Assembly: GCA_025055035.1 (NCBI GenBank)
Contig: JANWZB010000014.1
Span: forward strand, 1-40,067
Reading direction: 5' to 3'
Origin: Candidatus Kapaibacterium sp.
Lineage (GTDB): Bacteria > Bacteroidota > Ignavibacteria > Kapaibacteriales > UBA4661
DNA: 40,067 nucleotides
Part shown: positions 35,023 to 40,067 of the stretch, piece after piece
How the letters are laid out: the number at the start of each line of letters is the position of its first letter
Position numbering within the stretch: the stretch's first letter is position 1
The notes under the pieces: model-generated
What the model was told of the DNA's origin: nothing
What the model saw: only the letters and a program-made list of their open reading frames with translations
Databases searched by the model: none
Translations under genes and position numbers: made by a program

Positions 35023-35625
35023 TTACCCGTGCATGGCTGGCTGATTTGTGAGGGATTGTACGATAGTTGCCTCGTAGGAAGCTATCTCCTCAAGGCGCTG
35101 GTCAACAAGATTGGCAGGAAAATAACGCTTCGCGATAGCAACAAACGTTGTGTAATGACCTTCTTCGGAAGCCATAAGCGTGTGATAGATACCGCGTATA
35201 TCTGGGGGTATTGACTCGCAGCCCGCGAGGAGTGTAAAACGCTCACACGAGCGAGCTTCAATAAGACAGTCTACAAGCAGCGAATCTAGAAGACGCATAG
35301 GTTCACGCTTTGAGATGATTGATGAAAGCTGTTGTGCGTAAGGATTGCCTGCATCTATCCCAAGCGATAACCCTCGTTGTTCAAGTTCTCCTAAGATAAG
35401 CTTAAAGTGTGCAGTTTCTTCTTCGAGAATCACAAGCGCTTCACGCACAAGGTCATGCTTATCGGGGTAGCGCATGATAAGGTTTAGAGCATTGAATGCT
35501 GCTTTTTTCTCACAATGAGCGTGGTCGCGCATAATATCTGCTATATGCGTGGCAGCAACATGAACCCATTCTGGATGGGTCGGGGCTTTGAGGCAAAGCA
35601 TATAACTTAGTAGGGAAGCTATCAC
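35023..35625 (-). CDS. miaE: tRNA-(ms2io6A)-hydroxylase
   Basis: A 200-residue ferritin-like di-iron monooxygenase that hydroxylates the isopentenyl group of 2-methylthio-N6-isopentenyl-adenosine at position 37 of tRNA. The di-iron ligands are visible: Glu39 in DHAHCEKKAA, Glu70-x-x-His73 in EEETAHF, Glu123 in IEARSCERF and Glu154-x-x-His157 in SEEGHY. The IEARSCERF motif is highly specific for MiaE. The start is a GTG whose last two bases and the next A form the TGA stop of the upstream methyltransferase (GTGA overlap), so the two should be translationally coupled. miaA and miaB are not in the window. Confidence 0.94.
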   Translation of the reverse strand: MIASLLSYMLCLKAPTHPEWVHVAATHIADIMRDHAHCEKKAAFNALNLIMRYPDKHDLVREALVILEEETAHFKLILGELEQRGLSLGIDAGNPYAQQLSSIISKREPMRLLDSLLVDCLIEARSCERFTLLAGCESIPPDIRGIYHTLMASEEGHYTTFVAIAKRYFPANLVDQRLEEIASYEATIVQSLTNQPAMHG

Positions 35626-36470
35626 ATAGAATACCGCTGTTCAGAATGCACTGTTGAACTAGCTTCAGCAGAAGAGGAATAGAGCGTACTCCGCAGAATA
35701 TAATTTGCTTCGAGACTGCAGTACTCTTGTATGCCCGGAATCCAGCGTAATGCTGTGAGGGGTACAACTGGCAAGCCGAACTTTATGTGAAATACAGGGC
35801 GTAACAGAAAGTATTGTTCTCTGTCGATGACGTAGTGAGCGCTCTGAGCTGCTTGCTTGAATGCCGATACTGTCAGGCGTATTCTTGCAAGACGCTGTAC
35901 TTCATGAATATCAACAGGGTGCCAACCTGAGAGGGTCATGCGCCGAAACAGCGCTTCGGGAAGTAGGTGAACATACGGCAGCTTACCCCAGAAATTGCGT
36001 AGTAAGTGCTGATGACCACCGTAGGGCGATGTGTAGGGAGGGAATTCAATAAAAACACACCCTCCGGGCGCAAGCAAATGTTGGATAGTTAAGAGAGCAT
36101 GATAGGTATCATCCAGATGCTCAATAACATCACGTAAGATGACAAGGTCGAAGGCACGATGCCAGTGATTGGGTATGTCGTCGGAGAGAACATTATGAGT
36201 TGATAAGCTAAGCGGAAGGTGGAGAGTGTGTGCGATCTGCCGTGCATAGTGAAGGCGCTGCTCCTGAATGTCTGTACCGAGAACATCAGTCGCACCTGCT
36301 TCGATAAATGCCATCGCGACGCCTGCTTCAGCACACCCTATTTCAGCAATGCGAGCACCAGACTGAAAAGCTCCGTGTCGTTGAAGGTATGGAACAAGGA
36401 ACTCTCGCGCGAGCCGATACTGATAGCCCCAGTAATACTTTGTATGATTGGGGAGCGTTGTATCGTGCAT
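35622..36470 (-). CDS. Class I SAM-dependent methyltransferase
   Basis: A 282-residue enzyme from ATG 36470; a GTG at 36524 would add 18 residues and start just after the upstream stop. The SAM-binding core has motif I IAEIGCAEAGVAMAFIEAG, a GTDI acidic strand, FDLVILRDVIEHLDD (motif II/III) and LLAPGGCVFIEFPPY. This resembles the UbiE/Methyltransf_11 group, but the substrate is unknown. The C-terminal ~80 residues look like a substrate-binding extension. It lies in an operon-like row behind the Popeye-like gene and overlaps miaE by four bases, so a tRNA- or membrane-linked role is possible but unproven. Confidence 0.88.
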   Translation of the reverse strand: MHDTTLPNHTKYYWGYQYRLAREFLVPYLQRHGAFQSGARIAEIGCAEAGVAMAFIEAGATDVLGTDIQEQRLHYARQIAHTLHLPLSLSTHNVLSDDIPNHWHRAFDLVILRDVIEHLDDTYHALLTIQHLLAPGGCVFIEFPPYTSPYGGHQHLLRNFWGKLPYVHLLPEALFRRMTLSGWHPVDIHEVQRLARIRLTVSAFKQAAQSAHYVIDREQYFLLRPVFHIKFGLPVVPLTALRWIPGIQEYCSLEANYILRSTLYSSSAEASSTVHSEQRYSM

Positions 36471-36528
36471 GATAGTAGTATAGGCTGTCGAAGGCGGTAA
36501 ACAACATGAAGACTGTATGCTCACGTGC

Positions 36529-37203
36529 TTATACGTTTTCTTGGGAGTGATGAGTATTGTACTTGGAAAGCTTGTTGGCGAGGTCGTAGCTGAAGAGAGT
36601 TTGTAGACCAGTTTTTAGCTCAGGTTCTTTGAGCATTAGGTCATAGAGGTCATTTTTTCGCCACATGACAAGACGCATGGTCGTTGCTGCTCTAACGGTA
36701 GCAGAAGCAGGGTTACCTGTGAGAAAGCTCATCTCACCAACAAAGTTGTTATCTCGTAAATATGCAATCGCTTGGTTTTGAAGATATACGACAGCGGTGC
36801 CGTCGTAGATGAGCATCAAATGTTCCACATCATCATGTTCAGTGATCAAGACCTCGCCTTTATGTACCGTTTTCCATTCGGCGATAGCCATGAGCTTCTT
36901 AAAAACAGCGTTGGGCAGACTACGGAAGGCTGTAGATTGCAAGTATCGTTCTTCGTCGCTCCACGAATCGTCATAGCGCTTGCGGTATAAGGCAATAGCT
37001 TGGGCAACATTGATAAGTAGTAGCATGCCTGCACCAGCTACGTGAATGTACTGTACCTCACGTGGAACATATACCCAATATAGAAGCTCTAGGGTGAAAC
37101 CAAGAACAAGGCATGTGCGCATCCACAAGGGTGGCGTAAGAAGAAACGCCCACGCTTGCACGATATATGGGAACAGTGTTAGTATGATAGATACAATACC
37201 CAT
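36529..37203 (-). CDS. Popeye-like membrane protein with cyclic-nucleotide-binding fold
   Basis: A 224-residue protein with three predicted transmembrane helices (about 3-22, 29-46, 53-72) followed by a cNMP-binding-type beta-barrel (about 85-205). The order, the YRKRYDDSW..EERYLQSTAFRSLP linker and the C-terminal MWRKNDLYDLMLKEPELK....LFSYDLANKLSKYN closely resemble Popeye-domain (POPDC) proteins, better known from animals but with bacterial members. The phosphate-binding cassette reads GEMSFLTGNPASATV: it keeps GE but has Ala166 where CRP-type proteins have the Arg that contacts the cyclic phosphate. Ligand binding may therefore be altered or lost. There is no DNA-binding domain. It probably leads the methyltransferase-miaE operon. 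Confidence 0.75.
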   Translation of the reverse strand: MGIVSIILTLFPYIVQAWAFLLTPPLWMRTCLVLGFTLELLYWVYVPREVQYIHVAGAGMLLLINVAQAIALYRKRYDDSWSDEERYLQSTAFRSLPNAVFKKLMAIAEWKTVHKGEVLITEHDDVEHLMLIYDGTAVVYLQNQAIAYLRDNNFVGEMSFLTGNPASATVRAATTMRLVMWRKNDLYDLMLKEPELKTGLQTLFSYDLANKLSKYNTHHSQENV

Positions 37204-37306: not shown

Positions 37307-39457
37307 TTACTGCAACGGTTCTTGAAACTCAATATAGACAGCACGATTAAAGAAGCGCCCTTCGGGTAATGTCGCATCGCACTGCAACAGAGAAAGAATA
37401 CGGTTGCGAGCTTCTGTGGAGAGCTGCAAGCGCGTGTTCTGGACACCAAGCACTGTTGACAGCTGCTGCAATACACCTGTATGAGAGTATGAGTCGAGAG
37501 CAACCTGTGATTGTGGCGTTAGCCGAGCACGGATACTTTGCAGTATAGCCTCAGTCTGCGGGTGATTATCTGAGAACACGAGAGTATAGAAAACAAGCTT
37601 TTTGTCAGGCGATTGCGTACGTTTTTTATCAGTATAGCGGCGAACTTCGACAGGCACAGAAATAATCGGTGCTTCAACTTCGCGGTTATCAACATCGGTG
37701 GCAGATAGCCGTATGTCCATACTTCCTGGAGAGAGTGGAATGGAACGCTGGTCAGCATCGATATTCCAAATATAGTTCTCAGGATACGTATTCCCGCCTA
37801 TAAATCCGTGAAGAAGGCGTTCTTCTCGTCCTTCAAAGGTGTTAATTTCGAGCGACCACTGTTTGAGACCACTCCCTGCAAGAATATTCAACCCCAGTAC
37901 AAGTGTTGGTGGATCGACAGTAAGCTGCATTCCTTGCACAGTCAGTGGAGCGAGAAGTTCAGGAGACGAAGAGCTTAGCTCTACTCGGCGGTTTTCTGCA
38001 TGTGCTTCTTCGCTTGTGAGAGTCGAAGAAGCATGCGATGGGCGCTCCGGTAAATCGCGCTTTTGCACAATAATCCGTCGAGCAGGAATTTTCCAAACGT
38101 CCTGAAGATAATCACTGATAGCTTGTGCACGCTGCTCAGAAAGGCGTTGATTCCCTTGCTCGCTGCCGCTGGTGCAGCCAGTAACAGTCAGTATAGCAGA
38201 TGGATACATTTCCATGCGCTTGCCGATAATATTCAAAATCGTGTAGTAGATTTCTATAGGTTTCATGCGCTCAAGCGCCTCGAGGCGAAAGTTTGCGCGG
38301 TCATTTGCTGTAAGGCGTTTGTAGCGTCCGGGTATAACCGAAGAGTTTTCGTTAAAGAAGATATATGGCAGAAGTTGAATAGAACGCTCTGCGCGAAATT
38401 CTTCAACGCGTACTGTGGGATTCAATACATCCGTTGCATTATGGGCAGTGATACCTTTCACTGTAGTAATTTTTGCCGAGAGCCCTGATGAACGCAGTTC
38501 GCGTAGTTCCATTTGTATGCGGCGACGCTCTTGGGCAATTTCTTTTTCTAATGCCTGAAGCCGTTGCAATTGGTATGCTTCAGCATCGAAGCGTGCGGCG
38601 CGCGCTGGATACCACCGCAGTGTCAGCTGTGCCTGTGCATTATCCAGCTTCCAGAAGGAATCACGGTCGAGGCTTGTATACCAAATAACAACATTTGTGA
38701 GTCCATACGCACCAAAAACCTCAGGTGCAAGTGTTAATGAACGCGACGCATTGATAGGGAGCTCGTAGCCGATACCAGTCATAAGTGCAAGACTAAAATT
38801 TGCTATGCCAAGCGCCCGTACAATCGGAATTTCGCCAGAAAGTTCATTCCGTGTTCGAAAGAATCCTGCAGGTAATCCGTCGACAAATCGACCATAACTT
38901 GGTTCTAAAAGTCGCTCGACTTGGTAATATTGCTTCCAAAATGTCAGGTGTGTTCGTGCTCCCAGAAAGATATTGAGATTAGCCGTAGGGGAAAGGGCCA
39001 GAAAGAACTGCATTCCCGCTGACGCGAGTTGTGCATCGAGAGTGCGTTGAAATTTCCCGATATCAGAATTCCCATCGAGCGTGCCGACAGGTACAATCTC
39101 AGGAATAGCACGGAGCGTGTGGGATTGCTGAAGAACAGTAGCACGAGCACCGAAATGTAGCCATGGTGTTACAGGTAATTCAATAAGGAATCCTAACGTT
39201 CCTCCGTAGCCATTGCCTTCGATAAATGGTGTTTTGTTGCCCGACAGGTTAAAAAGCTCGTAGAAATGAACACGGGCGCGTGTGTACGAGCCACCAAGAA
39301 ATCCTCCGATCCGAATATCCATGCGTTCATCGGGTGGTGAGAGGTGGCGCACAGAGTCCTGCTGTGTCGAATCAAGCACTGCCCATGCATAGAGCGGTAG
39401 CAATGCTATGGGGAATTGTAGGGCACAGAAATACAATATGCGCGACATCGAAAGCAT
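37307..39457 (-). CDS. OmpA-family outer membrane protein with two OmpA-like modules
   Basis: A 716-residue protein with a signal peptide (ALQFPIALLPLYAWA). Residues about 48-283 form a beta-barrel-like domain, 287-324 a charged coiled coil (LQRLQALEKEIAQERRRIQ), and 362-494 an OmpA/MotB domain (YIFFNENSSVIP, TGCTSGSEQGNQRLSEQRAQAISDYL, AENRRVEL). Arg443 and the NRR motif are kept, but the Asp of the usual GHTD is Ser430. A beta-sandwich linker (about 500-610) precedes a second, eroded module at 619-712 with FYTLVFSD, SYSHTG, LSTEARNRILSLL and FFNRAVYIEF in the same order. The protein should link outer membrane and peptidoglycan, although peptidoglycan binding may be weakened. It lies 42 bases after anmK on the same strand and may share its transcript. 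Confidence 0.85.
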   Translation of the reverse strand: MLSMSRILYFCALQFPIALLPLYAWAVLDSTQQDSVRHLSPPDERMDIRIGGFLGGSYTRARVHFYELFNLSGNKTPFIEGNGYGGTLGFLIELPVTPWLHFGARATVLQQSHTLRAIPEIVPVGTLDGNSDIGKFQRTLDAQLASAGMQFFLALSPTANLNIFLGARTHLTFWKQYYQVERLLEPSYGRFVDGLPAGFFRTRNELSGEIPIVRALGIANFSLALMTGIGYELPINASRSLTLAPEVFGAYGLTNVVIWYTSLDRDSFWKLDNAQAQLTLRWYPARAARFDAEAYQLQRLQALEKEIAQERRRIQMELRELRSSGLSAKITTVKGITAHNATDVLNPTVRVEEFRAERSIQLLPYIFFNENSSVIPGRYKRLTANDRANFRLEALERMKPIEIYYTILNIIGKRMEMYPSAILTVTGCTSGSEQGNQRLSEQRAQAISDYLQDVWKIPARRIIVQKRDLPERPSHASSTLTSEEAHAENRRVELSSSSPELLAPLTVQGMQLTVDPPTLVLGLNILAGSGLKQWSLEINTFEGREERLLHGFIGGNTYPENYIWNIDADQRSIPLSPGSMDIRLSATDVDNREVEAPIISVPVEVRRYTDKKRTQSPDKKLVFYTLVFSDNHPQTEAILQSIRARLTPQSQVALDSYSHTGVLQQLSTVLGVQNTRLQLSTEARNRILSLLQCDATLPEGRFFNRAVYIEFQEPLQ

Positions 39458-39499: not shown

Positions 39500-40067
39500 C
39501 TATCGTGGGAAAGAAATCTTTCCCATAGAAATAGTCGGTATACGAGCACGCATACCAAAGTCAATGTTTCCGCCACACAAAGTCTCATTAGCGAGAACAG
39601 CAAAAAGCACAGCCTCTTTAGCATCTGGAATAATGCCAAGTGCATCTGTCGTATTGATTGGCACATTCGGTAAGTATTCTTTTAGTGTTTGCACAAGTGC
39701 TGGATTATGAACACCACCCCCACTCATATACACGGCATACGATGCTGCGTCTGGCATAGTACGCTTAATGGCATCAGTGATAGTTTCTGCGGTAAATCGA
39801 ACAAGTGTTGCCATCACATCTTCTGCCGGCATAGCGCTTAAAAATATGTGATGTCGTTGTGCTGCACGGTCGAGATACTCCATATTGAAGAGTTCCGGTC
39901 CGGTTGTTTTAGGGAATGGAGCATCGAAAAATGGATGGTCTTTCAATGCATGGAGCAATTGAGGACTATACCGTCCTGCGAGGGCTATGGAGCCATTTGT
40001 ATCGAATACTTTACCGTACATCCGCCGTGCGTAGGCATCCAGCATAGTGTTGCCTGGTCCAGTATCA
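39500..40067 (-). CDS. anmK: Anhydro-N-acetylmuramic acid kinase, 3' part
   Basis: About 188 C-terminal residues are visible; the frame stays open to the window edge, where it reads DTGPGNTMLDAYARRMYG, a signature of AnmK. Later segments include FDTNGSIALAGRYSP, FPKTTGPELFN, YMSGGGVHNPALV and IIPDAKEAVLFAVLANETLCG, all conserved. AnmK phosphorylates 1,6-anhydro-N-acetylmuramic acid released during cell-wall turnover, allowing its recycling to MurNAc-6-phosphate. About half the gene lies outside the window. The OmpA-family gene follows on the same strand. Confidence 0.95.
   Translation of the reverse strand, partial: DTGPGNTMLDAYARRMYGKVFDTNGSIALAGRYSPQLLHALKDHPFFDAPFPKTTGPELFNMEYLDRAAQRHHIFLSAMPAEDVMATLVRFTAETITDAIKRTMPDAASYAVYMSGGGVHNPALVQTLKEYLPNVPINTTDALGIIPDAKEAVLFAVLANETLCGGNIDFGMRARIPTISMGKISFPR

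Follow-up and report, generated by a model that had tools for sequence, protein, structure and literature searches.

A bacterial POPDC-like protein as a candidate membrane-bound cyclic-nucleotide effector with a non-canonical pocket

The window, i.e. the whole 40,067-nucleotide stretch of DNA that we analysed, carries on its minus strand a gene for a 224-residue protein (36529..37203, with the stop codon at 36529-36531) whose bacterial family has members in records from a number of phyla. Judging from its sequence, we call it a POPDC-like homologue rather than a POPDC protein, and we propose, with a probability of roughly 0.55, that it is a membrane-bound cyclic-nucleotide effector with a non-canonical pocket, for which cAMP would be the first candidate ligand. 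Animal Popeye proteins sense cAMP in heart and muscle. A bacterial family that combined a membrane part with a cyclic-nucleotide (cNMP) domain in this layout would push the origin of POPDC back, and would supply small proteins for the main structural question about POPDC, i.e. how a cNMP pocket works without its arginine. Through the link to Apyc1-type enzymes described below, these bacterial phosphodiesterases would also gain a function in the cNMP signalling of their host, as PMC9117128 suggests they might have.

The reading frame is not a chance ORF, because relatives exist in 22 other genomes of its own order, at 26-67% identity over the aligned length; plus-strand frame 1 over 36529-37203 translates with many stops. 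An AlphaFold model built from 23 sequences (pLDDT 87, pTM 0.65) placed helices at residues 3-19, 25-45 and 52-78, followed by a short helical link, a cNMP-binding domain of helices and strands, and a C-terminal helix at residues 194-222. The hydropathy of residues 1-75 is consistent with membrane helices, and the first three helices (37147..37197, 37069..37131 and 36970..37050 respectively, all minus strand) are therefore predicted to span the membrane. The C-terminal helix contains the motif DLANKL (residues 207-212; 36568..36585, minus strand). The initial annotation had described a three-helix membrane part, a cNMP fold and a DLANKL-type C-terminal helix, and each of these is seen in the model. 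In its predicted topology, with three membrane helices preceding a cNMP-type domain in the cytoplasm, the protein has the POPDC layout. The core of the cNMP-binding domain (residues 111-191; 36631..36873, minus strand) matched PF00027 (cNMP_binding) with 54.6 bits against a cut-off of 27.5, and the structural matches over residues ~81-224 were cNMP-binding domains of CRP/FNR proteins, kinases and channels (Z up to 18.4), so the window protein has both the fold and the profile score of a canonical cNMP-binding domain. The POPDC1-3 model (PF04831) gave 26.0 bits, just under its cut-off of 28.1. The profile search that had been proposed as a check therefore placed the protein above the threshold of the one family and slightly below that of the other.

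In its own order, the family is represented by one match per genome (E<=1e-5) in 23 of 61 genomes, i.e. the genome of the window and 60 relatives. When a genome-contig collection was queried with the single protein, 47 pattern stretches were returned, none of which was confirmed as a relative; the alignment query returned 106 stretches that encode relatives, of which the best 80 loci were kept. The record titles of these 80 loci name Ignavibacteria, Kapaibacterium, Bacteroidota, Planctomycetota, Lentisphaerae, Myxococcales, Nitrospinota, Alpha- and Gammaproteobacteria and Bdellovibrio, among others. The window falls inside a fully supported clade of seven rows, all from its genus, in a tree of 84 rows, where the two Lentisphaerota rows and seven of the eight Planctomycetota rows also form clades; the labels Bacteroidota and Ignavibacteriota are scattered, partly through naming and misbinning. 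One contig titled Bradyrhizobiaceae (L056) groups with Ignavibacteria loci, has neighbour genes in common with them and is probably misbinned. Two POPDC-like genes (L092 and L094) lie on one 13.6 kb contig (JAGRKZ010000158.1) of a Bauldia MAG. Three loci from Bdellovibrionales (L081, L085 and L088), which sit on a long branch of the tree, matched the query from residue 82 onwards, i.e. in the cNMP half only, and their N-terminal half appears to have diverged. By eye, the part before the cNMP domain also looks different, and longer, in Sulfidibacter corallicola (L091).

The likeness to Popeye proteins that the initial annotation had seen in the window protein is supported at the level of the family, and there it lies in the membrane half. 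All 23 proteins of the order-level alignment matched the POPDC1-3 model at E<=1 (best 8.5e-12), and nine of ten members, picked for diversity from the 75 family proteins that could be aligned, scored over its cut-off, with up to 59.0 bits (the tenth had 27.6). When 44 proteins, likewise chosen from the 75, were split in halves, the membrane half matched the model in 35 cases (best 1.3e-9) and the cNMP half in only eight (best 0.0083). The membrane halves thus match alone, which means that the likeness goes beyond the shared cNMP fold and could not be given by a generic CRP-like domain; the explanation that the POPDC match reflects the common fold only was rejected on this result. The membrane half of the window protein, searched alone, gave no POPDC1-3 match at E<=1. 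In its own genome, the model found two matches, the full window protein (E 1.8e-5) and a place that is not one of the six with a cNMP domain (0.38), and the other five of these six places gave no POPDC1-3 match at E<=1. No POPDC match was found at E<=1e-4 in 14 control genomes; at E<=1 the model matched in six of the 14, in no case over the cut-off.

Two features of these searches limit what the profile match can say about ancestry. In the literature, PF04831 is a cytoplasmic Popeye domain of ~150 residues, whereas most of the 140 positions of the model that we used align to the membrane part of the bacterial proteins; for this reason, and because a match would also depend on the sequences from which the model was built, the match alone is no proof of descent shared with animals. 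When the PDB was searched with a profile of the membrane half, no hit was significant (best E 1.2), and there was no POPDC chain among the 60 listed of 211 family-profile matches or among the listed structural matches, an absence that excludes nothing. The window protein shares with animal POPDC1/2/3 (PF04831) the order of three membrane helices and then a cNMP-type domain in the cytoplasm, the profile similarity in the membrane region and a non-canonical cassette from which the canonical Arg is likewise missing. However, the animal motifs F(L/I)DSPE(W/F) and FQV(T/S) (DSPE/FQVT-type; PMC6562197, PMC5872366) are absent from it, with residues 154-170 reading FVGEMSFLTGNPASATV, and it differs further in that its GEM...ATV retains the CRP-type Glu, in having no long C-terminal tail and in its score under the Pfam cut-off. 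Because of this score and the absence of DSPE and FQVT, the name 'POPDC protein' would be too strong.

The phosphate-binding cassette of the window protein, GEMSFLTGNPASATV (residues 156-170; 36694..36738, minus strand), keeps Glu157, and when the family profile was aligned to PKG domains Ala166 (codon 36706..36708, minus strand) fell at the position of the PKG Arg, which agrees with the earlier observation that GE is kept and that Ala stands in place of Arg. The absence of Arg is thus genuine, yet it characterises the bacterial family as a whole and not the window protein in particular. Among 75 aligned proteins, i.e. the window protein and 74 of the 80 loci (L040, L044, L049, L100, L101 and L109 were left out because of an inner stop, masked bases or truncation), the position is occupied by A (49), T (14), P (8), S (3) or V (1) and never by Arg, which is found one residue further on in two of the proteins. 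Glu157, Ala168 and Asn65 of membrane helix 3 are invariant in all 75, and Arg29 of helix 2 and Lys211 of the DLANKL motif are present in 71 and 70 respectively. The cassette, with the pattern GEM-(S/A)-F...A-x-V, is the most conserved stretch of the family. As the search pattern used to collect the 80 loci, F[IV]GEM[SA]F[LV][ST], contains GEM, the conservation of GEM among them follows in part from the selection; the pattern does not extend to the Arg position. Two sets are independent of the cassette pattern: the order-level set, with GEM in 23/23 and Arg in none, and the PF04831 matches elsewhere in the phylum, where GEM is present and Arg absent in all nine that are readable, the frame of the tenth being broken. 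The POPDC-like reading frame of L127 (genome G312) is broken inside the cNMP domain.

Animal POPDC proteins bind cAMP without a canonical cassette (PMC5872366, PMC6952887), so the absence of Arg does not exclude binding. Judged by their conservation, the basic residues at positions 103, 150, 177 and 211 are candidates for a contact with the phosphate. Compared with CRP/FNR-type and PKA/PKG-type domains (PF00027), the bacterial protein has in common the fold, the GE of the cassette and the Ala-x-Val after it, but lacks the cassette Arg, has three predicted membrane helices in front, and contains no DNA-binding or kinase domain that we found. Elsewhere in the same genome, cNMP domains on contigs C66 and C111 (L024-L026, two of them in tandem on C66) keep the canonical Arg, and these, rather than the window protein, could be the real cAMP receptors. 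The idea that the window protein holds the sole Arg-less cNMP domain of its genome was not supported, since by eye the domain on contig C166 also has no Arg at this position.

A genomic association more telling than that with a methyltransferase and miaE links the POPDC-like gene, in its own order, to PF23023, the family of Apyc1-type (class II MBL) phosphodiesterases; Apyc1 and its tested bacterial relatives cleave cyclic mononucleotides (PMC9117128). Across the 61 genomes of the order, 23 have both genes, none has the POPDC-like gene only, two have PF23023 only and 36 have neither (Fisher test, 8e-15); counted by genus, the same table reads 12/0/1/14. The observed agreement of 59/61 was reached in none of 20,000 within-family shuffles. 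Of the two genomes with PF23023 and no POPDC-like gene, G002 belongs to the genus of the window and G008 is 70% complete. There are four genera (g11, g20, g21 and g23) in which one species is without both genes and a sister species has both; two of these four genomes without the genes are 92-93% complete and the other two 99%. PF23023 adjoins the POPDC-like gene in ten of the 23 genomes (G011, 17, 19, 26, 33, 37, 42, 56, 59 and 60), and because of this adjacency joint loss could explain part of the co-occurrence. In the other 13 the two genes are on different contigs, and in the genome of the window both PF23023 genes are on contigs other than that of the POPDC-like gene. Among the 80 loci, many of which have short flanks, 19 also encode a metallo-beta-lactamase-fold protein next to the POPDC-like gene, and the one of these 19 that was scanned is an Anti-Pycsar_Apyc1 protein in Pfam (97.3 bits, cut-off 50). 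A universal link was rejected, as PF23023 was present in none of the ten POPDC-like genomes elsewhere in the phylum; one of these, G089, has a PF23023 match below the family cut-off.

Class III cyclases (PF00211) are present in all 23 POPDC-like genomes of the order and in eight of the other 38. The ten POPDC-like genomes elsewhere in the phylum all have PF00211, and in a sample of 296 genomes from the phylum (two samples taken as one set) it was found in 24/24 POPDC-like genomes as against 127/272 others, where the 24 comprise 20 PF04831 genomes and four found only by the order-level search, and further ones below the reach of the model may be missed. This co-occurrence is weaker evidence, because PF00211 is common in the phylum (151/296). 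PF00211 matches are notably numerous in G032 (45), G015 (37) and G033 (31), which are genomes of 3.0-3.7 Mb; G015 has its 37 matches with neither a POPDC-like match nor PF23023. In at least eight further genomes of the 23 (G000, 1, 3, 4, 5, 6, 7 and 9), and also in G002, PF23023 lies within 300 bp of PF00211. In the genome of the window such a pair is found on contig C218 (L132:4087-6274), where a response regulator fused to an adenylyl-type cyclase is directly followed by an Apyc1-type phosphodiesterase; a PF00211-PF23023 pair is seen again in the rest of the genus and in G009. The closest solved structures for the C218 phosphodiesterase are Apyc1 (7u2r, 1.2e-34), a putative metal-dependent hydrolase (7e-34) and a second Apyc1 (7u2s, 6.3e-33). 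It differs from Apyc1 in its setting, i.e. on a bacterial contig beside a response-regulator cyclase and, in relatives, beside the POPDC-like gene. In some genera, then, PF23023 goes with the POPDC-like gene and in others with a cyclase, and it thereby connects all three. Four of the 13 cyclase places of this genome were read, and all four carry a Lys/Asp pair, which we take to be adenylyl-type base contacts.

The computed features are the predicted architecture, membership in the family, the missing Arg, a conserved cassette, and a phosphodiesterase and cyclases that co-occur and are linked with the gene; from these we infer ligand binding, the identity of the ligand, a movement and a partner in the following scheme. 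The three membrane helices would anchor the cNMP-binding domain on the cytoplasmic side of the inner membrane, and class III adenylate cyclases would raise the level of cAMP or a related cNMP. The pocket would then bind the nucleotide via Glu157, which is retained, and the strongly conserved cassette GEM-(S/A)-F...A-x-V, in which the Arg is missing. This might shift the long C-terminal helix and so alter contacts with a putative membrane partner, and in the order of the window an Apyc1-type metallo-beta-lactamase-fold phosphodiesterase would end the signal. Findings that count against the effector reading include the missing phosphate-binding Arg, the absence of PF23023 outside the order (0/10), the Arg-bearing cNMP domains elsewhere in the genome and the score of the window protein under the POPDC cut-off.

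In one rival reading, ligand binding has been lost and the cNMP-like fold is kept as a structural or dimerising module behind the membrane anchor. Arg is absent from all 75 aligned members, and proteins of this fold that have neither the Arg nor the Glu bind ligands other than cNMPs (PMC5872366). However, the Glu is kept in the bacterial family, the cassette is its most conserved stretch even in the sets that were not gathered by the cassette pattern, the gene is kept or lost in its own order together with a family of cNMP phosphodiesterases, and the animal proteins bind cAMP with a non-canonical cassette of their own, all of which make this explanation unlikely. The pocket might instead hold another ligand, e.g. 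a metabolite, or a nucleotide that is larger or carries a different charge, in which case the phosphodiesterase link would be an indirect one through overall cNMP signalling. We regard this as rather improbable. In its favour, no aligned member has a charged residue at the Arg position (A, T, P, S or V in each case) and the phosphodiesterase link fails outside the order; against it, the Glu that is invariant in 75/75 contacts the ribose in canonical domains (PMC5872366), and Apyc1 and the bacterial relatives that have been tested are phosphodiesterases of cyclic mononucleotides (PMC9117128).

A further explanation is that the protein is a phage-defence effector of the Pycsar type, with Apyc1-like enzymes as its off switch. 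PycTM has a transmembrane domain (PMC11224242), and the POPDC-like protein shares with PycTM and PycTIR a cNMP-binding domain joined to an effector part, here the membrane helices. Its cNMP half matched the PADLOC profiles for TIR-effector (1.3e-11) and PycTIR (1e-10), a PycTIR cNMP domain ranks near the top of the structural matches (8jsk, Z 17.3), and relatives have Apyc1-type neighbours. These PADLOC matches (PycTIR, TIR-effector and PycC) are, however, confined to the shared cNMP domain, and the membrane region is of the POPDC type. No cyclase match was found in the four ORF products scanned around the gene (35023-35625, 35622-36524, 37307-39457 and 39500-40045), the gene occurs as a single match in each of the 23 genomes of the order that have it, and the four cyclases read in its own genome look adenylyl-type. 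A defence role is therefore very unlikely, and a cyclic-nucleotide effector at the membrane remains the reading that we prefer.

Reviews place POPDC in animals, two of them also in protozoa (PMC5872366, PMC4918794, PMC6562197, PMC4080823), and give CRP as the nearest non-POPDC relative, one of them inferring an independent origin (PMC5872366, PMC4918794, PMC6562197). In the portions of text available for PMC6952887, PMC8706714 and PMC4973886, bacteria come up solely in connection with CRP, and PMC6726836, searched by word, does not mention them. Our literature search, which had most subscription journals outside its range, did not find a description of bacterial POPDC members; such proteins may already be filed under POPDC in sequence databases, since many of them score over the cut-off of the Pfam model. 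The origin of Popeye-type sensors may lie before that of animals. In the heart, POPDC1 scaffolds adenylyl cyclase 9 (AC9) and is also part of complexes with PDE4 (PMC9724675, PMC8986152), and the parallel between these complexes and the bacterial links to cyclase and phosphodiesterase is suggestive as an analogy but is no evidence of descent. It is conceivable, and we put it forward as a speculation that is more probably wrong than right, that Popeye proteins began as ancient bacterial membrane cAMP effectors complexed with a cyclase and a phosphodiesterase; the AC9-PDE4-POPDC1 assembly of the heart would then be a late descendant, and the bacterial cassette, with Glu kept and Arg lost, an intermediate between the CRP type and the POPDC type.

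The immediate neighbours of the gene in the window appear to be a local matter. Downstream, after a gap of 4 bp, lies an ORF for a SAM methyltransferase (35622..36524, minus strand), which overlaps by 4 bp with an ORF for a MiaE-like tRNA hydroxylase (35023..35625, minus strand; PF06175 MiaE, 162.8 bits). This close arrangement fits the methyltransferase-miaE operon of the initial annotation, but it is limited to close relatives: relatives of the methyltransferase are near the gene in five of the 80 related loci and those of MiaE in three, i.e. in six and four loci when the window is counted, all but one of them in its genus. The pair is therefore no feature of the family, and was rejected as a family-wide functional context. 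Other neighbours recur among the loci, e.g. an M20 peptidase, a flavin reductase-like protein and a beta-propeller protein, as well as a topoisomerase in Bdellovibrionota and a protein with weak cytochrome matches in Planctomycetota.
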